Below, piece by piece: positions 1 to 10,210 of a stretch of 41,371 nt of DNA. The number at the start of each line of letters is the position of its first letter. Position 1 is the first letter of the stretch. The notes under the pieces were generated by a model. That model had not been told where the DNA came from, did no database searches, and saw only the letters and a program-made list of their open reading frames with translations. The DNA comes from a virus, in the IMG/VR virus record IMGVR_UViG_3300042392_002258, positions 1 through 41,371 of that record, one strand, 5' to 3'. The translations under genes and the position numbers were made by a program.

Positions 1-3000
1 CGAGACGGTCGCCCTTCAGACGGACGACTGGGACGTAGCCAGAACCATCGCCGCCTTAGTCGGCGCGGGCGCTCCAGACGTGCAGAACGCAGTGCTGCTG
101 TGGCAGGATGATGGCGATGGTGCCGATGCGATGTTCACGTTCACTGCGACCTCAGACGATTCGGCCCGGCGCATCGCAGATGTCTTCGACAAGTCGGGCA
201 GGCAGGGGTTCACCTACGACCCTGCCACCCGCGAGTTTTCAATTGCGGTCTCGGATCCGGATGCCACCGTGAATGATGGAATCAGACAGTTCATCGAGGG
301 AAATCGCGCGGCTGGCTACATTGAATCTGGCGCAGGTGCTGCAGGCGAACGAGGAAAGGGTCCGGGTCTCAAGAAAGGCAGGTTTGAACTCGTCTTCGAC
401 TCAGACTACCGAGCAATTATTGAAGGGAGTCAACGAAGGGCTGCCGCCGGAAATGCATTTGCGGGAGATCAAGGTCGGGCAGCCAGGGCCAATCAGCTTG
501 TCGCTCAAGTCCAATCGAGGCTGAGCGCATTTGAGGCGGCAAAGGCCGCAGAGGAAGGTGCCCCGCTGGCATCGCAGCCTCTGGTGTTTGGAGTGCCGGC
601 AGACAGTGGGTTCGCCGGTGCCGTTCAGGTGGCTGGGATTGATTCGGCGCTGAGGATTGCGGGGTCGCAGAAGTGGGCCAAAGGCCGCGAGCTGAAGGTG
701 ACGATGCAGACGTCATTGGCGACCGTCGCCGGCGTAGACGTCATGCGCGCCATCTCCACCCCCGGGGATTCCCGGTTCGAGTACCTGACGCAGGTCGGCA
801 CGCAGGATGCGCTGCGTGCGCTGCAGCAGAACCCGAATGCTGTGGGGTGGTACGACATTAAGACCAGGCAAGCTTTGGAGGTGGTGTCGCTTGTGCATCC
901 GGAGATCAAGACCAACCCGCGGGCGAGGTTCGCGTTCATCTGGGCTGTGGCGGTTACATCCAACGGGATGAAGGTGAACAAAAATTTTGAGATGGCTGAG
1001 AAGGTCTATCGGCAGTTCAAGGAGACCGGCAAAATGCCGACTAACGCAGGTGCCGGGCAGGCTGCTGCCGCCATCAATGACGCACTCAGCCTTTACAATC
1101 AGTTAGTAGACCAGTGGGGTATTGATAATCTGATGCGGTTCATGCTCAGCGACTTTACTGTCGGGCAGATTATCGCAATTGATGAGGACATAAAACCCGG
1201 AGGAGAGTGGGTTGAGACAATAGTGCGAGGCGCGGCGATCCTCGGACCCAAGATCGGCAACGGATTCTTCTCAAACCTGTACGGGAAGTTCGATGCGCTC
1301 ACGATGGATCGCTGGCTGGTGCGGACATGGGGTCGGTGGACCGGATCTCTGATTGTCCGGAACGAGGCGTTGATCGAAGAGGCGCGCATCAGAATAGGGG
1401 CGGCGATGGAGGCAGCATCGGCTGACTCTCGAACGATGGAGAACCTGAAGGCAGCGCTCAATCTGAATCAGTTGCCAACGGATCCGGATGCGCTTGCGGT
1501 CGCAATCAACAAGGCATCGCAGAAGGTGAATCTGCGCAACAGTATCTCATCCACCCCTCAGGGTGACGAGATGCGACTGGCGGCGAATAGCCTCGCGAAG
1601 CATCTTGATGGGCAGAAGGAGGCACCTCAAGGGCCAGGCGAACGGAACGAGATCAGGCGAGTGTTTCAATCCATCCTCGATAATATCCGGGAATCTGACC
1701 CGAGGTTCAAAGGGTTGACCATGGCTGACCTGCAGGCGGTGCTGTGGTACGCGGAGAAGCGGATTTATGAGATTGCAAAGGTGACCGATGACTCCGATGA
1801 TTCGGGCTACGAGGACGACGAGGCACCGGACTACGCCAACGCTGCGATACAGGTAGCGCGGGCGGCCGGTGTGTCGGAGGCTCGCATCAAAAAGGCTCTC
1901 AGAACAGCACTCTTAACCTCCGACGACAATGGACGCTCAACAGCAACACGATCAGGAGATGGCTCGCAGGATGCGGGGCAAGAAGGGTCTCGCAGCAGGC
2001 AGCAGGCAACGGCTCGAGGCTTTACTGAAAGCGAAAGGCGGCAGTTCCGACAGTTCGCAGCGCTTCGACGAATTCGGGGCTCCCGTAGATTACAATCCAC
2101 TGGCAGCGCTCAAGGCAAGGAATCCTGGTCTTACCGACAAGGAGATCGAGGAGATGGCGGAAGAACACGGGTTCTGAAGGGACTGGGTGTTCGGTATGTC
2201 GGGGAGTGGGTGGCAGGGAAAAACCTCAAGCGTGTCCTGAAATCGTCAGGGGAACGCATTGAGGTGCCGGAGTTTTACGAACTGGAGAAAAGCCAGCAGA
2301 GCGCGGCGGTATTTGGCGGGCTGATTTCGGCGGTCAAAGCATCATCGAAGTATGGTGCTGCGGTGTATGTCTATCCTCAGCAGGAATACGCGGACATGCG
2401 AATGTTCGTGACGAAGGACGGGAAAGCTGGGTTTGCGCTCAGGAAGGACGAGATCGTGTCTGTGTTCAGTGCGGGAGGGCGAGGGCGCGCGGGGATGGAG
2501 GCGGCTATTGCGGCCGGCGGTCGACGACTTCATGCTTTTGAGACCATACTGCCGGATTACTACGCCGCCCACGGTTTCCGTGCGGTTGCCAAAATGGGGT
2601 GGAACGAGGAGAAGAAGGAAGACGACTGGGACAAGGCTGCGTTCAGGCGGTACAACAACGGAGAGCCAGATGTCGTGTTCATGGTGCTGGATGAGGATGG
2701 ATCTGGTTTGTATTCACAGACCGACGGGAAGAAGGTCGGCGATTACGACGCCGGAGTCCGCCGGCAGAAGAAGGAACTCAAGGAACTCGAGGTCAGCCGA
2801 AACGCCAGGCGAGCAGGTGGGGCTGGTGCGGGCGCGCCGCTCGCATCGATGCCTGTGCGGCGAGGTTCGGTGGGCGGCATCTTCCGGATGTCGGGCACGG
2901 GATCGACGCAGGGAATACTCGTCGACCCGGAGCCACTGGCTACAGCCAAGGGACTCGCCGACAGGATCGACCAGATGTACGCGGAGGGTCAGACGGATGG

Positions 3001-6000
3001 CGTCGAGGATCTGGAGGCTGAGCTGGAGACCCTGCTCGACCTCATGGACGGTGGCATCGATTATCTGGAGGGGGAGAGTCAGGAAACCCCCGACAGTGAA
3101 GAGACGCGCGACATCGATGAGTTCTCCCCCGGGCCGGGCGAGCAGCTGCTGCTCAACTGGATTGCCTGGAACAATCCCACCCCCGGATTCAGTCCCAGCG
3201 AGGACTTTCCAACCTTTGGGGCAATGGCTCGCGCCCGCGACGGCGACGGCGCATGGAGAATACAGCCCGGCGTCACCGACGAGCAGATCGAGGCTGCCGC
3301 GCGGGAGGAGATGGCGCAATACATGCGCCGGCGGAGCGCCCTCAGCGGTCAGCCACTGGCATCGCTCGGCGGCACCCGGATCCGGCACCGTGCTGGTCAG
3401 GCGTTCCGAGTCAACGACCTCGCCACCCGTGCTCTGCTGACCGGCAGTCCCCTGCCTCGCGTGCTCGTCGAATCGGTTGAGGCAACGGACCGGTCGAAGC
3501 AGGCGGTAATGCAGACGGCGGCGCAGATCGGTCGCGAGATGGCGGTGGCTGCTGAGCGGACTGCGGCGCGCACAAGGATGCCCCTGGCAAATGTGCAGCA
3601 GCGGATCAGTGACGTCCTCGACGGGGTCGCCGGTGCCGGTGCTGCGCTGCGTACGCTGGATCCAACCCTGGCAGAGTATGCGCGGCGCGCGCGGCACATG
3701 GTCGACGATCTGTCGCAGGCAATCGCCAACACGCTGCCGACCGGCCCGATGAGTCAGGGAATCCTGACAAACCTCGGGACATGGATGCGCCGCAGTTACG
3801 CCGCGTTTGATCCGGAGAGCGGGTGGAATTACGATAATCTGGTGGCGGCTGCCGCGCGCAATCAGCAGGTCGGCGGGCGGCCGGCTGGCGCAATCCTCCG
3901 AGATGCTCGCCGACTGCTGCGCGCGCAGGATCCGGCGGCTACGGCAGACGAGATCGAGGCGACGATGCGGGATCTGATGGACCGGGATGTGGTAGGGCAG
4001 GCAATCGCTGGGGGCAGTGCTGTCAGGAAGAACGTGACGTCTCTGATCCGGCGGAGCACCATCGATCCGGAGATCAGAGCGTTGATGGGAGAGGAGACCA
4101 ATCCCATTCACCGCTTCGCTCAGTCGACGTCGTTCCAAGCGCAGTTCCTCGCGCGGCACGAAGGGCAGCACACAATTCGTCGAATCGGTCTGGCTGCCAA
4201 TCTGTTCCGCACTGCGAGGGGTGGTGTCTACACTGAGCAGATCCCGGCCGGTGAGGCGTGGTCGCCGCTGGCTGGGCTCTGGACGACTCCTCAGCTGCTC
4301 GCCGCTATGCGCTCGGCAGACGGCGGCGTGATGTCGGGGACGGACTTCTGGGGGTTGGCTGGGCGGTCGCTGACGTGGCTGGCTCATCGCGCGAAGATGA
4401 ACAGGGTGGCGCTGAACCCGGACTCATGGCTGGTCAACGTGTTCGGCGGCGTGGTGTCGGTCGTGGCGTCGGGGGATCCGTTCTACGGCAACATGCTCCG
4501 CCGGTTCCGTCAGGCGGTGGGTCTGTCGCGGGTCGACGCCGCGGGTCGGGTCAGTGCCACCAACCTCGCTGCGCAGGCGGTGCTCGATGGGCAGCGGCAG
4601 ATGGCTGCGCGGCTAGTGGCTAGTGGAGTAATCGGCAATACTCTGTCGCTGGGCGATCTGCAGGCGACCATCCCCCGGGCGATGCTGCAATGGATTGAGC
4701 GGGACGCGGCGGCGAACCGGGCGATGGGTGCGGCTGAACTGGCGTGGATTGGTCAGGCCCTTGGTCGAGGGTTTGGGCTACCCGGGCGCGCCGTCGGTGC
4801 CGCGGTCGGTGCCGCGGTCGGTGCGGCGGTGGGGCAGCAGCGGATCAATGCCGTGAATCAGGCAATCGCCAAGGTCGTCATGCAAACCCCTGACACCCTC
4901 GCGCGATTGACCGGATTCATGGGTAACTATGAGGCGGCGATGGCGTCGGGTCTGCGGGGGCCGGATGCCTTTGACTGGGCGGCGGAGCGGACTCGCAACA
5001 CGTTCCCTGATTACGGCAAACTGCCAGCAGCCATCAGAGACCTCAGCCGCATCGGGGTGCTAGGGTCGTTCGTCGCCTTCCAGTTTGAGGTGTATCGAAA
5101 CTTCATCTGGAACATCCGGTACATCGGTCAGGAGATGGGCAGCCGGAACCCCGCACTCCGGCGGCGCGGAATGGCGCGACTGGCAGGCATGGGGTCGGTG
5201 TCTGCGCTGGCGTTCGGCGGGCTGGGCAAATTGATAGGGTTGCTCGGCGGGGTTCCCGACGACGACGAGCGGTCGCGCGCATTCCGCAGGCAGTTTGCTG
5301 CACCATGGGAACGCGGCGCACAGCTCGAGTTCGTGCGGTATGACGAGCGTGGCGTGCAGTACTTCAACCCCAGCTACTTACTCCCTCCCGGGACCATGGC
5401 GGAACTGGTGGTGGCGGCGCAGTCCGGCGAGGATCCCGCCGATGCCGCTGGGCGGCTGGTGGCGCAGGCACTGCAGCAGTTCGCGGGCGGCTCCGTCAAC
5501 CTGTCGCCGGTGGTGGCTGCGGTGTCGGGGTATGATGCCGCCGGCCGCCAACTCTCCTACCGGCCCGGGATCGCCGGGGCGGCTGAGCGTGTCGATGCCG
5601 CAGCCAAGGTGATGCTCGACCCCGGGTATGCGGACAAGGTCGAGCGACTGGTCTACGCCACCCGCGGCGCTGAGCGGAAGGGGCGGTCGTTCAGCTGGGG
5701 TGAGGAGGGTGCTCGATTGGCTGGCGTGCGTGCGTTTTCTCGCACCTGGCCGCAACTCGTTCAGAACCGCCTCAGGGAATTCGCGAGCCAGTATCAGGAC
5801 ATCCGCAGCCAGGCGAACAAAGACCTCGGCATCAACCTGCCGGGTGCCGCCCAAAGGTCCATCGAGGAGGCAAACGCGCAGCTTGCAAAGCTGAGGGCTG
5901 AGGTGGAGAGGTTTCGGGCAGATGCAAAGGTGCTCGGGGTTCCCCCGGGGGTCGTGTACAAAGAGTTCAGGGACTCGGCGCTACCGACCGTCATCCGGTC

Positions 6001-6055
6001 AATCGAGCCCGACCCGCGCCAGCGGAACCGGGTGCGGACGGTTGGGAGTCGCTGA
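1..6055 (+). CDS. Giant polyvalent phage protein, C-terminal 2,017 residues (continues from 36840-41371 across the window ends)
   Basis: The frame is open from base 2 with no start of its own and stops at 6055; it joins in frame to the gene running off the right edge, giving about 3,528 residues in all (numbering below is for the joined protein). Visible parts: an HhH-GPD DNA-glycosylase-like region around residues 1780-1960, where GPKIGNGFFSNLYG (K1928) is followed by TMDRW (D1947), matching the Lys/Asp spacing of endonuclease III; a GNAT-like region around 2240-2440 (LPDYYAAHGF, PDVVFMV); an acidic segment around 2490-2580; then a long helical C-terminus with a glycine zipper (GAAVGAAVGAAVG) and hydrophobic helices resembling the LPD38-type region of polyvalent proteins. 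Such proteins are usually virion-borne and ejected with DNA. PLAS motifs at residues 1699, 2457 and 2629 lie near domain borders. Two stretches (273-524, 1929-2177) read better in another frame. Domain names are inference from motifs. Confidence 0.8.
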   Translation, partial: ETVALQTDDWDVARTIAALVGAGAPDVQNAVLLWQDDGDGADAMFTFTATSDDSARRIADVFDKSGRQGFTYDPATREFSIAVSDPDATVNDGIRQFIEGNRAAGYIESGAGAAGERGKGPGLKKGRFELVFDSDYRAIIEGSQRRAAAGNAFAGDQGRAARANQLVAQVQSRLSAFEAAKAAEEGAPLASQPLVFGVPADSGFAGAVQVAGIDSALRIAGSQKWAKGRELKVTMQTSLATVAGVDVMRAISTPGDSRFEYLTQVGTQDALRALQQNPNAVGWYDIKTRQALEVVSLVHPEIKTNPRARFAFIWAVAVTSNGMKVNKNFEMAEKVYRQFKETGKMPTNAGAGQAAAAINDALSLYNQLVDQWGIDNLMRFMLSDFTVGQIIAIDEDIKPGGEWVETIVRGAAILGPKIGNGFFSNLYGKFDALTMDRWLVRTWGRWTGSLIVRNEALIEEARIRIGAAMEAASADSRTMENLKAALNLNQLPTDPDALAVAINKASQKVNLRNSISSTPQGDEMRLAANSLAKHLDGQKEAPQGPGERNEIRRVFQSILDNIRESDPRFKGLTMADLQAVLWYAEKRIYEIAKVTDDSDDSGYEDDEAPDYANAAIQVARAAGVSEARIKKALRTALLTSDDNGRSTATRSGDGSQDAGQEGSRSRQQATARGFTESERRQFRQFAALRRIRGSRRLQSTGSAQGKESWSYRQGDRGDGGRTRVLKGLGVRYVGEWVAGKNLKRVLKSSGERIEVPEFYELEKSQQSAAVFGGLISAVKASSKYGAAVYVYPQQEYADMRMFVTKDGKAGFALRKDEIVSVFSAGGRGRAGMEAAIAAGGRRLHAFETILPDYYAAHGFRAVAKMGWNEEKKEDDWDKAAFRRYNNGEPDVVFMVLDEDGSGLYSQTDGKKVGDYDAGVRRQKKELKELEVSRNARRAGGAGAGAPLASMPVRRGSVGGIFRMSGTGSTQGILVDPEPLATAKGLADRIDQMYAEGQTDGVEDLEAELETLLDLMDGGIDYLEGESQETPDSEETRDIDEFSPGPGEQLLLNWIAWNNPTPGFSPSEDFPTFGAMARARDGDGAWRIQPGVTDEQIEAAAREEMAQYMRRRSALSGQPLASLGGTRIRHRAGQAFRVNDLATRALLTGSPLPRVLVESVEATDRSKQAVMQTAAQIGREMAVAAERTAARTRMPLANVQQRISDVLDGVAGAGAALRTLDPTLAEYARRARHMVDDLSQAIANTLPTGPMSQGILTNLGTWMRRSYAAFDPESGWNYDNLVAAAARNQQVGGRPAGAILRDARRLLRAQDPAATADEIEATMRDLMDRDVVGQAIAGGSAVRKNVTSLIRRSTIDPEIRALMGEETNPIHRFAQSTSFQAQFLARHEGQHTIRRIGLAANLFRTARGGVYTEQIPAGEAWSPLAGLWTTPQLLAAMRSADGGVMSGTDFWGLAGRSLTWLAHRAKMNRVALNPDSWLVNVFGGVVSVVASGDPFYGNMLRRFRQAVGLSRVDAAGRVSATNLAAQAVLDGQRQMAARLVASGVIGNTLSLGDLQATIPRAMLQWIERDAAANRAMGAAELAWIGQALGRGFGLPGRAVGAAVGAAVGAAVGQQRINAVNQAIAKVVMQTPDTLARLTGFMGNYEAAMASGLRGPDAFDWAAERTRNTFPDYGKLPAAIRDLSRIGVLGSFVAFQFEVYRNFIWNIRYIGQEMGSRNPALRRRGMARLAGMGSVSALAFGGLGKLIGLLGGVPDDDERSRAFRRQFAAPWERGAQLEFVRYDERGVQYFNPSYLLPPGTMAELVVAAQSGEDPADAAGRLVAQALQQFAGGSVNLSPVVAAVSGYDAAGRQLSYRPGIAGAAERVDAAAKVMLDPGYADKVERLVYATRGAERKGRSFSWGEEGARLAGVRAFSRTWPQLVQNRLREFASQYQDIRSQANKDLGINLPGAAQRSIEEANAQLAKLRAEVERFRADAKVLGVPPGVVYKEFRDSALPTVIRSIEPDPRQRNRVRTVGSR
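273..524 (+). CDS. Nested +1-frame ORF inside the giant gene (83 aa), possible real small gene
   Basis: This ORF starts at tandem ATG codons immediately after an in-frame TGA and ends at a CTGA. By hand count about 69% of its third codon positions are G/C, against about 45% for the giant frame over the same bases, so codon bias favours this frame. The product is amphipathic and normal in composition (ITLNLAQV-like helix, then LLKGVNEGLPPEMHLREIKV), while the giant frame here is rich in A, G and R. No family is recognised and the Shine-Dalgarno is weak. It could be a separate small gene, an overprinted gene, or the product of frameshifting. It ends 38 bases before the second PLAS motif. Confidence 0.4.
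   Translation: MMESDSSSREIARLATLNLAQVLQANEERVRVSRKAGLNSSSTQTTEQLLKGVNEGLPPEMHLREIKVGQPGPISLSLKSNRG
1929..2177 (+). CDS. Nested +1-frame ORF inside the giant gene (82 aa), probable real small phage protein
   Basis: The ORF opens at an ATG just after an in-frame TAA and ends with TGA (CTGA context). Its product has a basic helical N-terminus and a C-terminal segment containing FGAPVDYNPLAALKARNPG and a final acidic helix, which looks like a conserved small phage protein. In contrast, the giant frame over the same bases is a low-complexity R/S/G/T/Q string typical of an out-of-frame translation. Third-position G+C is about 65% here by hand count. It sits between the HhH-GPD-like and GNAT-like parts of the giant protein. 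There is no clear ribosome binding site. Function unknown. Confidence 0.5.
   Translation: MDAQQQHDQEMARRMRGKKGLAAGSRQRLEALLKAKGGSSDSSQRFDEFGAPVDYNPLAALKARNPGLTDKEIEEMAEEHGF
4793..4828 (+). repeat. Three tandem 12-bp units encoding a glycine zipper
   Basis: GTCGGTGCCGCG occurs twice, followed by GTCGGTGCGGCG. The units are in frame and encode a VGAA repeat, a glycine/alanine zipper of the kind that packs or inserts helices in membranes. The repeat could expand or contract without breaking the frame. Confidence 0.8.
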
Positions 6056-6302
6056 ATAGCATCTGGTATAGGATTCCACGCCACAATCGCAACCCCTTCA
6101 GCATCAAGGCACTTCCGCGCCACACGACAACATTCTCCATCCTGTGACGAATGATTTGTGAGGTGCCTGAATCTGAATGAATTGCGGGCGTGATTGTTGG
6201 AATCTCAATGGATTGAGCGGATTCTCGGGTATTTATTCTTCTGGTGGTTTCTGTTGCGATCTGTGACGGCGCAGGTATAGCGTGCAGCACAGCACTACCA
6301 CA
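6056..6302. other. Intergenic region before the integrase; candidate attP/promoter region
   Basis: This 247-bp stretch between the giant gene and the integrase is less G+C-rich than its surroundings and has no convincing ORF. It holds a perfect dyad, CTCAAT-GG-ATTGAG, at 6204-6217. Tyrosine-recombinase attachment sites often lie beside the integrase gene, so this is the best place for attP, but no host-identical core can be recognised from one sequence. No clear sigma-70 promoter and no terminator after 6055 were found. Confidence 0.35.
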
Positions 6303-7625
6303 ATGAATATTGGATCCTACGCCATCGTCCGCCAGCCCAAGTCGCGAGCCCGCTGGAAAACCGAGCAGCCTGAGTTCGAGCCGTGCTGGGTGGTGCGGTT
6401 TCGGATTCCGGGGCAGTCGGTGAAGGTAGAGTCAAGCCGGCTGGGGATCTGCGACCTGTGCCTCGCGGAGCCGAGCAACCCCACCGCCACCCGGGAGCGG
6501 TGCCGCTGCATCGGTCCGGTCCGTCAGTGGGCTGACGCCAAACTGAAGGCGATGGGGAAGCTGTGGCACGAAGGGCGCATCGAGGAGTTGGAGCGGGTGA
6601 CTGCGCGGAGGGTGGATTGCACCATCGGGCGGCTGGTCGACACCTTCGCCGCCAACATCCCCAAGGGGGGCTACCAGTTGGACTATGTGGCGGGGCTTTG
6701 GATCATTCTGCGGGAAGCGCTGGGGGTGGAGCAGGCGGCTGCCCGGAGGCTGCCGGTCACCGTGCTCACTCTGCAGCTGGCGGTCGACTGGATGACTTTG
6801 AGGTGGCATCACAATGCTGAGCGTGGGCTGCCGTCTCCACGGTCGTGGGAGCAGTTGCGGGCGGCGCTGAAGGCTGGCCAGCTGGCCGCGCCACCCCGCA
6901 ACGTCGCGAGCCCGGGGAACTACACCATCAATGGGTTGTTGACGAAGGTGCGAGCGCTCATTGGCGAGACCTCTCGCACGCATTACCTGCGCGGGCTGGA
7001 ACTGCCGGCGCTGACGTTCACGCAGTCGAAGGGTCTGGTGGCGGCGCGGGGCCAGCACCAGGCTCTGGACAGGTCGGTGGTGGCGGCGATCTACGCCTCG
7101 GCCGAGGAAGCGCTGGCGACTGGGGATCGCGACTGGTGGGTGGCTGTCCAGCTCACCAGCCGATACGGTCTCCGTCCCATCGAGGTGCTGGCCGCGCGCA
7201 CCAACTGGATCGAGCGACAGGAAGACGGCGAGTACATGCTCCACATCCGTAATCGGCAGGACGAGCAGTTTAGCCAGAAGGCACGCGCGCGGGCGGTCAA
7301 TGCTCAGTACTCGGTGCCGGCGGAGGTGGCGGAGGTTCTCCTGCAAGCCGGCGAAGGGCAGCACCTGTTCGCGCCTGGCAAGGCTGTGTCCACCCGAGAC
7401 AAGCTGATGGAGCGCATCTACAGTACCCGGCTCCGCCAATGGATTCCGGAGGGCAAGGACACTTGGTACGCATTCAGAAAGCTGTACGTTTCCATGCTCT
7501 ATGCGGCGCACGGGAAGGAGGCGGCGCGGCACGGTGCACGCCATGCGTCCAGCGATGTCACAGAGTCGCACTATGCGGTGCCGCTCGCCCACGTCCCTTC
7601 GGTCAACCCGCTGGAGAGGGTCTAA
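6303..7625 (+). CDS. int: Tyrosine-type site-specific recombinase (integrase)
   Basis: A 440-residue protein that would integrate and excise the phage. The C-terminal half has the family pattern: SRYGLRPIEVLAAR with the box-I arginine at residue 291, WYAFRKLY with the second arginine at 392 (the usual H of HxxR is replaced by Y), then RHASSDVTESHYA with H414 and nucleophile candidate Y424, spaced 10 apart as in this family. The N-terminal domain holds a cysteine cluster (CDLC and CRC, residues about 45-70) that may bind zinc. The ATG at 6303 was chosen; a GTG at 6282 is in frame and would add seven residues. The gene converges on the PP-loop gene with a 4-bp overlap of the stop codons. Its presence makes a temperate lifestyle likely. 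Confidence 0.85.
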   Translation: MNIGSYAIVRQPKSRARWKTEQPEFEPCWVVRFRIPGQSVKVESSRLGICDLCLAEPSNPTATRERCRCIGPVRQWADAKLKAMGKLWHEGRIEELERVTARRVDCTIGRLVDTFAANIPKGGYQLDYVAGLWIILREALGVEQAAARRLPVTVLTLQLAVDWMTLRWHHNAERGLPSPRSWEQLRAALKAGQLAAPPRNVASPGNYTINGLLTKVRALIGETSRTHYLRGLELPALTFTQSKGLVAARGQHQALDRSVVAAIYASAEEALATGDRDWWVAVQLTSRYGLRPIEVLAARTNWIERQEDGEYMLHIRNRQDEQFSQKARARAVNAQYSVPAEVAEVLLQAGEGQHLFAPGKAVSTRDKLMERIYSTRLRQWIPEGKDTWYAFRKLYVSMLYAAHGKEAARHGARHASSDVTESHYAVPLAHVPSVNPLERV

Positions 7626-8431
7626 TCGACGCAGCCGCAGGGAACGTGCACGGGCTCGAGGTCGAGCCATGGGGAGTCGTCCTCATGGCTCACCCAGTCC
7701 GCCCAGAGATTACCCTCGCCGCCTAATCCTCGTTTGACCCAATTCGTGGGCTGTGAGCGTCGTTCAATTTCGAGCGCTGTTTCAAACAGGGCCGGGTGAT
7801 TCTGACGCAGCAGGAGCACTTCGGACCGCTTGGACGCGGGGCACATGAAGCACGCCGACTTGCCCGGGACTGGCAGCCCGGCTGCCGCAATTGCAGCGGC
7901 GCAATCGGCGCGCCGCCAACCCCATTCAACCAGAGGATACCAAAACACGGTCGACATCCCTTTGGCTAATGTTTCGTCATGCTTCTTGAGAGCACGATGC
8001 CCTTCGTTGGCATCGTAACCGATTGCCTTTGTGACGACGGCGACCTGCCGCTCCCGCATCCATTGCTTCAGTCGCTTGTTCTGGGGTCGGATCTTGTGCC
8101 TGACTGAGCACCCTTTCCGCCCAGCATAAGCCAACGACGGCATCACGTTGTTTCGCAGGCACGCATCGACCAGTCCTTCGGGCTTGCCTTTGAAGGTGCC
8201 GTGCACCGTCTCGATTTCAAGACCCCACCACAGTTGAGTCATTGCGCTCATCTGTTGGGCGTGAGCATAGGTCTCCGGTCGTTCTGCGCCGGTGTCCGCA
8301 AACAGGATCAAATGCGGCGTGATGCCGCGTTCACGAAAACCCACCAGCATCGCAGTGCTGTTCAAGCCGCCTCCATAGGCGACTACAAGCGGCGGCGCAG
8401 CAGGGTCTGTATCGGGTCCGGTCATGGTCAT
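7622..8431 (-). CDS. PP-loop ATPase of the PAPS reductase/DndC-like superfamily
   Basis: This 269-residue protein begins with an adenylating PP-loop, AYGGGLNSTAML (residues 18-29), followed by the DTGAE motif at 46-50 that is typical of PAPS reductase and DndC-type enzymes. Cysteines at 108 (GCSVRHK) and 194/197 (CFMC) could hold an Fe-S cluster or zinc. Family members activate a substrate by adenylation or handle sulfur. In phage the targets are often unknown. It is the last gene of the leftward operon, 15 bp after the transglycosylase-fold gene, and that pairing suggests a role in base modification. QueC and related enzymes of 7-deazaguanine chemistry also use PP-loops, but this sequence looks more like the PAPS-reductase branch. 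Specific substrate unknown. Confidence 0.75.
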   Translation of the reverse strand: MTMTGPDTDPAAPPLVVAYGGGLNSTAMLVGFRERGITPHLILFADTGAERPETYAHAQQMSAMTQLWWGLEIETVHGTFKGKPEGLVDACLRNNVMPSLAYAGRKGCSVRHKIRPQNKRLKQWMRERQVAVVTKAIGYDANEGHRALKKHDETLAKGMSTVFWYPLVEWGWRRADCAAAIAAAGLPVPGKSACFMCPASKRSEVLLLRQNHPALFETALEIERRSQPTNWVKRGLGGEGNLWADWVSHEDDSPWLDLEPVHVPCGCVD

Positions 8432-8446
8432 GTCAGTTGATGTTGA

Positions 8447-9142
8447 TTACGCGGGAATTGCCAGCTCAGCCTGCGGGGGGATTGAGCCTTCGAGCCATTG
8501 TGCGAGCGCTTTGGCCTGGCGGCCCGATTCGGTGCCTTTCATCCATCCTGTGCCGTCCACCGATTCGACGTGCCACCGCTCGCAGATCTGGAGGCGGTCG
8601 ACCTCATTGACCCTTCCCACATGGACTCTCCGCCCGGTCTTCGCCCACATCGGGAGCGAACGCCATTTCCATTCTGTTGTGCCGCCGACGAAGATCACGT
8701 TGGCATCCCGTGGGATGTCGGCGGGAGTCATGCCGTCCTGCACCGCAATGGCGAGGGGCCAGCCGTAGCGCGCCGCGACCGGCGCATATTGATGCCACTT
8801 TGCTAAGGTAGCCGCACGATCCGCCACAACATCCGGCACCAAGACCCATCGGGGAGCCATTCCGTGAGCACGCACGGCAGCCAACATGGCAAGCCATGCG
8901 CGTTCGTCCCATGCTCGACCGGACGTCCAGCTCGCGAAGGCGTCATTATCGAGCGCAAACTGCATCCACGGTCGCAGCTTGGTCTTGCCCATGGCGGTCG
9001 GGCCGATCAGCCAGCCAATGCGCCCACTATACCGGCCAGCCCAGTAGTGCACGATGGCGCTAGAGTTATTGGACGGCATGACCATCAGTCGGTTCTTTGC
9101 CTCGCGAGCCATGATCTGAGCCCAGTGGAGATCAGTACTCAT
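8447..9142 (-). CDS. tRNA-guanine-transglycosylase-fold protein, DpdA-like (candidate DNA guanine exchange enzyme)
   Basis: A 231-residue protein whose motifs follow the order of the TGT family. LDNDAF (D65/D67) corresponds to the DSGGFQ region; VPDVV (D104) and AVQDG (Q135) correspond to the substrate-pocket Asp and the IVQGG region; FVGGTTEWK (G153-G154) to GGLAVGE; VHVGRVN (174-179) to the YLMGVG strand; SVDGTG (D196) to the FDC nucleophile segment. The C-terminal CxCxxC zinc site and tRNA-binding tail of bacterial Tgt are absent, so the protein is much shorter than Tgt (about 370 residues). Phage DpdA enzymes of this superfamily exchange guanine in DNA for preQ0. No preQ0 synthesis genes are present here, so the base would come from the host. 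ATG at 9142 overlaps the upstream stop by 4 bp. Assignment rests on motif order seen by eye. Confidence 0.6.
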   Translation of the reverse strand: MSTDLHWAQIMAREAKNRLMVMPSNNSSAIVHYWAGRYSGRIGWLIGPTAMGKTKLRPWMQFALDNDAFASWTSGRAWDERAWLAMLAAVRAHGMAPRWVLVPDVVADRAATLAKWHQYAPVAARYGWPLAIAVQDGMTPADIPRDANVIFVGGTTEWKWRSLPMWAKTGRRVHVGRVNEVDRLQICERWHVESVDGTGWMKGTESGRQAKALAQWLEGSIPPQAELAIPA

Positions 9143-9597
9143 GGTGGTGGTGGTTCGGTTGGGTTGGGGGCGGAGAAGAGGTCCAGCAGGACTCGGAGAT
9201 CGATAGCGGCGTGCATTGCGCGGATCTGCATCGGCTCGATGTGAATGCGCCACTGCAGCAGGTGGCGACACTGTCCGAGGTAGATCAGTGCCCACGTCAG
9301 GTAGACCGCGAGATCGAGTGCCTCCTGATAGGCGTGATCGATGCGCTCGCGAAACGGTGCCGGGTTGTCGATGAGGTCGGTCGGGTATTTCGCTCTGCCG
9401 TATGCCTGGCGGGACGCAATGTCGGCACGCATGCGACCGACGACGTCGTCGACAGCCTCGCGGTCCAGCTGATGCGCTGCGAGCATCGCTTTGCCGTTCG
9501 CCAAACCATCCATGTCGGCGAGGAGGGTGCAGAGGTATCCCTCGACCCCGGAGGGTGTCATAGGAGGTGGTGATGGGGTGGTGATGAAGGGATTCAT
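9139..9597 (-). CDS. MazG-like / phage helical nucleotide-hydrolase-like protein
   Basis: The 152-residue product is mainly helical. A central stretch, RQAYGRAKYPTDL (about residues 62-75) followed by AYQEALDLAVYLTWAL (about 88-104), resembles the EExxxD helical core of small phage MazG-type NTP pyrophosphohydrolases, with a conserved E and D pair in the second helix. If active it would clean or shape the dNTP pool. The C-terminus ends in a PEPPPP-like tail. The gene overlaps both neighbours by 4 bp in the leftward operon. The family link is tentative; it could be a non-catalytic relative. Confidence 0.45.
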   Translation of the reverse strand: MNPFITTPSPPPMTPSGVEGYLCTLLADMDGLANGKAMLAAHQLDREAVDDVVGRMRADIASRQAYGRAKYPTDLIDNPAPFRERIDHAYQEALDLAVYLTWALIYLGQCRHLLQWRIHIEPMQIRAMHAAIDLRVLLDLFSAPNPTEPPPP

Positions 9598-9884
9598 GAC
9601 GGGTTGATGCTGGTGGCTGGCGTTGATTCAGCTGGCGGGCGGCGATTCCAGCAGTCAAGCAGAGCGGTCCGGGATCGGCGGTTCGGGAAGGTTGCTCCGC
9701 ATTGATAGCAGCACATCGACCAGACGATGTCCGGGTTTGGAATCAGCCGGTCTCTGAGCCCGGTAAACACGGTAACGTACATCGGACCGTGTGGGGTGAA
9801 GCGGATGTCCCTGCCTCCGCAAAATGGGCAAGGCAGTGCTGCGTGCGGAGAGGCTGCCAATGATGGTGATGGCGAGGTGCTCAT
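9594..9884 (-). CDS. Lar-like antirestriction Zn-ribbon protein
   Basis: This 96-residue protein has LPCPFCGG (C19, C22), then a CCYQCG pair (C58/C59, C62) and a closing WNRR (79-82), the signature of the Lar restriction-alleviation family. In Rac prophage, Lar reduces type I restriction. The ATG at 9884 was chosen because it overlaps the upstream stop by 4 bp and directly precedes the family domain; a longer frame upstream lies inside the neighbouring gene. It stands beside the transglycosylase-like and PP-loop genes, supporting an anti-defence cluster. Many phage Lar-like proteins are only Zn-ribbons of unproven activity. Confidence 0.65.
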   Translation of the reverse strand: MSTSPSPSLAASPHAALPCPFCGGRDIRFTPHGPMYVTVFTGLRDRLIPNPDIVWSMCCYQCGATFPNRRSRTALLDCWNRRPPAESTPATSINPS

Positions 9885-10210
9885 AAAGGGTTCAGGCGGG
9901 CGTTGCGTTCGCGGCAGTGCTGTGCGTGGGCGGCGACACGCTCGGCACCGAACTCGGCTGTCATCATCTCCACGATGGCTCCGCAGGTGCTGCTGGGGTT
10001 GTTGATCATCAGTTGCCATGCTCGAAGGTCCATGTCGGCGAAGTCATCCGGCAGTTCATCCAGCACGGGCTCGATGTCGGGCTCCGGCTCAATGCGCCGG
10101 CTGCAGGTGGCGCAGGTCGCTATCCCGGTGCCTTCACAGACATCCATGTATTCGCCGCAGCATTCCGGCGGCTCGAGGTCATCGGGCGGGTCGTTCCAGT
10201 AGTCGTTCAT
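9881..10210 (-). CDS. Small acidic Zn-ribbon protein, function unknown
   Basis: A 109-residue acidic protein with four clustered cysteine sites near the N-terminus: ECCGEY, DVCEG and CATC (about residues 16-37), followed by an acidic linker rich in E, D and P and a helical C-terminus. The cysteine layout suggests one zinc ribbon. Start ATG at 10210 and stop at 9881 both overlap the neighbours by 4 bp. Possibly a protein-binding takeover factor; no family recognised. Confidence 0.7.
   Translation of the reverse strand: MNDYWNDPPDDLEPPECCGEYMDVCEGTGIATCATCSRRIEPEPDIEPVLDELPDDFADMDLRAWQLMINNPSSTCGAIVEMMTAEFGAERVAAHAQHCRERNARLNPL

Follow-up and report, generated by a model that had tools for sequence, protein, structure and literature searches.

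Phages that encode a singleton DpdA and no preQ0 genes of their own have already been described, and were proposed to depend on external preQ0 (Hutinet et al. 2019, PMC6884629). The PF02592 transporter family is known to import preQ0 and preQ1 (PMC11130926). Genes of the Q pathway are absent from Mycobacteria, and Rhodococcus erythropolis has TGT alone (PMC6884629). A TGT-fold protein encoded together with a PP-loop partner is also known from a different setting, namely Cap10 (with Cap9) of type IV CBASS. These are among the known systems closest to the locus described here, in which a short protein distantly related to the DpdA of the Enterobacteria phage 9g type is encoded beside a PP-loop enzyme.

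The stretch of DNA analysed (the window) is a 41,371-base IMG/VR virus record. Its minus strand contains the two open frames that a sequence-only reading had proposed as a guanine-modification pair, and both were recovered intact: P0001, a TGT-fold (DpdA-superfamily) short transglycosylase-like protein of 231 residues (8447-9142), and P0002, a PP-loop ATP pyrophosphatase of 269 residues belonging to the PAPS-reductase/SspD/DndC-like group (7622-8431), with a gap of 15 bases between the stop of the former and the start of the latter. On the same strand a gene for a 152-residue protein of phrog_11184 (9139-9597) overlaps the start codon of P0001 and is probably part of one common transcript with it. 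The Lar-like restriction alleviation protein of 141 residues (9594-10019, minus strand; PF14354, 7.9e-8), to which the pair had been described as adjacent, is a genuine member of its family, but lies one gene beyond. On the plus strand a 447-residue frame (6282-7625), which appears tyrosine recombinase-like by eye (SRYGLRP, GARHASSDVTESHYA) and has no match in Pfam or PHROG, converges with the PP-loop gene, so that the 3' ends of the two overlap. The same strand also encodes a 1,991-residue protein (80-6055) without any Pfam match, which is possibly a large injected (polyvalent) protein.

We place P0001 in the TGT/DpdA superfamily because its predicted fold, a profile match to DpdA and the conservation of its motifs all agree. 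Its AlphaFold2 model (pLDDT 88.4, pTM 0.86, from 42 aligned sequences) displays the TIM-barrel fold of the TGTs, as the sequence-only reading had anticipated. Foldseek searches of the PDB with this model recovered the Z. mobilis TGT and the P. horikoshii ArcTGT as best matches, with TrpA barrels mixed among the matches at similar E-values, and VIA-align gave a Z of 14.8 to TGT and 14.7 to Cap10. Likewise, several of the top matches in the BFVD viral library are phage queuine tRNA-ribosyltransferases. At the sequence-profile level, hhalign of the P0001 profile against canonical phage DpdA yielded a score of 54.8 (probability 93-95), whereas 60 column shuffles never scored above 21.4 and the reversed profile scored 16.9; the D..AF, GG, H and D motifs of P0001 and DpdA are aligned. 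The same procedure gave no direct match to bacterial TGT profiles, and identity to bacterial TGT and ArcTGT is only about 10%. P0001 has no match in Pfam or NCBIfam; a search of the PDB with its amino acid sequence returned integrases alone, which we judged to be chance matches, and profiles of its family likewise returned nothing of note.

All the motifs by which P0001 was originally recognized are present, namely LDNDAF (D65), VPDVV (D104), AVQDG (Q135), FVGG (G153-G154), HVGRVN (H174) and SVDG (D196). Their residues are invariant or nearly so among 57 distinct relatives and the motifs are kept in divergent phage, plasmid and giant-protein members, with D65, P103, D104, Q135, D136, G137, G153, G154, H174, R177, N179, D196 and G197 identical in 12 of 12 such divergent members; given this conservation the motifs are not a product of chance. 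The two catalytic aspartates and the guanine-pocket residues (D65, D104, Q135, G153-G154 and D196) are all invariant and occur as D, D, Q, GG, D in the same order as in bacterial TGT and ArcTGT. H174 is also invariant and lies in a matching motif, with hhalign placing it near, not clearly on, H196 of the 9g enzyme. P0001 differs from the 9g-type DpdA in size (231 versus 317 residues) and in having VQDG where the latter has CFHAGE. It differs from the TGTs in lacking the Zn/tRNA-binding tail: C187 is its single cysteine and hence there is no C-terminal Zn site, in agreement with what had been noted from the sequence. Taken together, the model and the profiles indicate that P0001 belongs to the TGT/DpdA superfamily as a short and distantly related member that has no Zn tail.

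Relatives of P0001 were collected from IMG/VR (80), phage records, prokaryote genomes and 174 plasmids, mostly of Pseudomonas. They form a distinct short clade whose members occur in phages, in prophages and on plasmids; it corresponds to phrog_15826 in PHROGs and matches phrog_887 only weakly, and some of its members are already labelled 'DpdA-like' in SEA-PHAGES records. The Pseudomonas plasmid members are common and annotated as hypothetical (NZ_CP097558.1 and 173 other plasmid records); among plasmid versions, trfA is close to the gene in pPAC1.3a, and in a plasmid of Deinococcus grandis it has parA/parB nearby. In Escherichia phage phiG7 a frameshift splits the TGT-like gene into two frames (L088:5941-6533) and in SHIN8 the match is likewise in two pieces, which may reflect either decay or a programmed frameshift. 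A 4,658-residue phage frame (L206:2654-16630) includes a complete TGT-like domain, which spans approximately residues 3120-3370 and has every catalytic motif, and this hints that some members act early in infection; the same contig also carries a PP-loop gene whose product is 37% identical to P0002.

The gene neighborhoods of these relatives supply the link to 7-deazaguanine, since they carry QueD, QueC, QueE or a transporter alongside. In about 15 loci the start of queD lies within the final codons of the TGT-like gene, with a 4-bp overlap (ATGA); in others queD, queC (L020, L093) or queE (L097) is directly upstream of it. Of 50 family contigs, 12 contained QueD above the cut-off, as opposed to none of 48 controls, the contigs being not fully independent for the purposes of Fisher tests. 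These controls were picked by an arbitrary 16-mer, as the capsid and helicase genes of the window gave too few contigs; clustering of neighbors by open frames was rejected because mirrored frames made it too noisy. A PF02592 (YhhQ-type) transporter adjoins the TGT-like gene in the actinophages GreaseLightnin and ReqiPine5, and is two genes upstream of it in Aoka. Sonali, phiG7 and R29Z encode the short TGT-like protein in addition to preQ0 genes and a canonical DpdA. The window itself encodes no detectable FolE, QueD, QueE, QueC, DpdA or YhhQ-type transporter, consistent with the first inspection, which had found the four synthesis genes missing. The sole QueD-like match below 0.01 (11929-11780) is a 53-residue piece with a GHxCxRxHG pattern, which we consider a chance fragment. 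As no supply gene is present, the base would have to come from the host, and the neighborhoods of the relatives lend support to the earlier suggestion of such host supply.

P0002 shows the features that had been ascribed to it, i.e. a PP-loop (GGGLNST), a DTGAE motif and cysteines (C108, C194, C197, C265 and C267), of which C108, C194 and C197 are conserved. It matches phrog_424 'PAPS reductase' at 1.8e-27 and SspD at 3.9e-13, but its score against the Pfam PAPS reductase model PF01507 (15.8 bits) falls below the cut-off of 22.5, and a general scan of the window revealed no dnd or ssp partner genes. The SspD profile matches 17 of 18 PP-loop neighbors. A profile of these neighbors finds as its best solved relative chain C of PDB 21fy, 'PptA' (2.5e-12), on which our literature search found no publication, followed by CysH and then weakly by Cap9 (E 0.0035). 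A structural model of P0002 (pLDDT 80) recovers PAPS reductases, GMP synthetase, TtuA, LarE, YcfA and Cap9 at similar Z (11.2 for Cap9). Both sequence and model identify P0002 as a PP-loop ATP pyrophosphatase most like the sulfur-handling members of the class. The further proposal that P0002 may convert preQ0 found no support here: the protein resembles PAPS reductase, SspD/DndC and sulfur-transfer PP-loops rather than QueC, whose Pfam model (PF06508) gave no match to it at E up to 1.

We propose, with a probability of roughly 0.55, that P0001 swaps guanine in DNA for a host 7-deazaguanine and that P0002 is an optional PP-loop accessory. P0001 would be a catalytically active member of the TGT/DpdA superfamily that exchanges bases: at selected positions in the phage DNA it would excise guanine via a covalent Asp-deoxyribose intermediate and then insert preQ0 or a close relative drawn from the host queuosine pathway; DNA modified in this way would be masked from restriction. 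P0002 may adenylate some substrate, the most plausible guess being a further modification of the 7-deazaguanine base or its nucleoside. What the computation establishes is the fold, the conservation of the active site, the remote kinship with DpdA and the genomic context; catalysis, the identity of the base, DNA as its target, supply by the host and any part played by P0002 are inferences. Base exchange in DNA with a host 7-deazaguanine is the best-supported reading, as has been proposed for the singleton DpdA phages (PMC6884629). Two observations on phages count against insertion: the DNA of the singleton-DpdA phage Orion contained no 7-deazaguanine, and that of Salmonella phage 7-11 only a trace of dADG (PMC6884629).

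The pairing of the two genes recurs among the relatives. Strong phrog_424 matches are present in 8 of 50 family contigs as opposed to 0 of 48 controls (p 0.003), and the PP-loop gene is closer to the TGT-like gene than predicted by uniform placement (p about 1e-6, a value that takes no account of the modular organization of phage genomes). It is found beside or near the TGT-like gene in the window, L027, L076, L067, L068, R6L, ReqiPine5 and Aoka, being immediately adjacent in the first three and in the next-gene position in ReqiPine5. In Arthrobacter phage Aoka (L103:3625-5616) and Rhodococcus phage ReqiPine5 (L105:5345-7506) the PF02592 transporter, the TGT-like gene and the PP-loop gene all lie within a few kilobases. 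This enrichment and adjacency speak against the alternative that P0001 is a TGT-fold enzyme and P0002 an unrelated accessory, for example a PP-loop of the thiolation or phosphorothioation type, which merely shares a mobile gene region with it. That alternative nevertheless comes close to even odds in our estimation, because the PP-loop partner is absent in phages with an 80%-identical P0001, the neighboring PP-loops fall in several unrelated subfamilies that share about 15-25% identity with one another, close relatives of P0002 come mostly from phages without a TGT-like gene, and the SspD/DndC profiles match. Thus, the pairing inferred from the sequence recurs above chance but is not an obligate partnership; the association is real, loose and optional. 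A two-part phage system that combines the short TGT-like enzyme with a PP-loop enzyme of the sulfur-transfer type, and so equips DNA with a novel 7-deazaguanine that might contain sulfur, its precursor being made by the host or imported, strikes us as rather a long shot.

Other alternatives concern P0001 itself. Some phages keep both a P0001-type protein and a canonical DpdA, and its function may for this reason differ from preQ0 insertion. One such function would be that of an eraser or counter-defence enzyme, relying on the same covalent chemistry to take out modified guanine, whether the phage's own, the host's or a rival's. The coexistence with DpdA in Sonali, R29Z and phiG7, the precedent of Cap10 for repurposing of TGT-fold enzymes and the member within the 4,658-residue protein, an arrangement to be expected if it is injected along with the DNA, would all be compatible with it. 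Yet many lineages have the P0001-type protein alone with a supply gene (QueD, QueC, QueE or transporter), which insertion explains better, and we hold the eraser role to be unlikely. We think it similarly improbable that the substrate of P0001 is RNA, such as a tRNA of the host or the phage, and not DNA. Specificity for tRNA is the classical property of the TGT fold, and the family retains the TGT-like VQ.G motif, but P0001 is devoid of the tRNA-binding tail, the window has no tRNA genes, and in R29Z and phiG7 the gene is beside or near the DNA polymerase. Finally, a nucleobase-protein conjugation pair like Cap10/Cap9 of type IV CBASS is very improbable, since, despite the equally good match of P0001 to Cap10 and the contact of the PP-loop profile and model with Cap9, P0002 is nearer PAPS reductase and SspD than the QueC-like Cap9, no CD-NTase or other CBASS gene was noted in a general scan of the window genes, and P0001 retains the full TGT active site.

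The system is hence less novel than first supposed: the TGT fold and the idea of singleton DpdA phages without preQ0 genes (in print since 2019) were already known, and what is new is the distribution of the clade, the supply-gene contexts and the loose PP-loop link. We found none of these in the literature surveyed, which stopped short of Cui 2023 and de Crecy-Lagard 2024, where the clade may have been named earlier. The analysis defines a short TGT-like clade across phages, prophages and plasmids, whose neighboring genes suggest that the base is obtained by making it, by boosting one step of its synthesis, by importing it or by borrowing it from the host, and, thanks to the gene groups of Aoka and ReqiPine5, phages available in culture could be examined directly by LC-MS.
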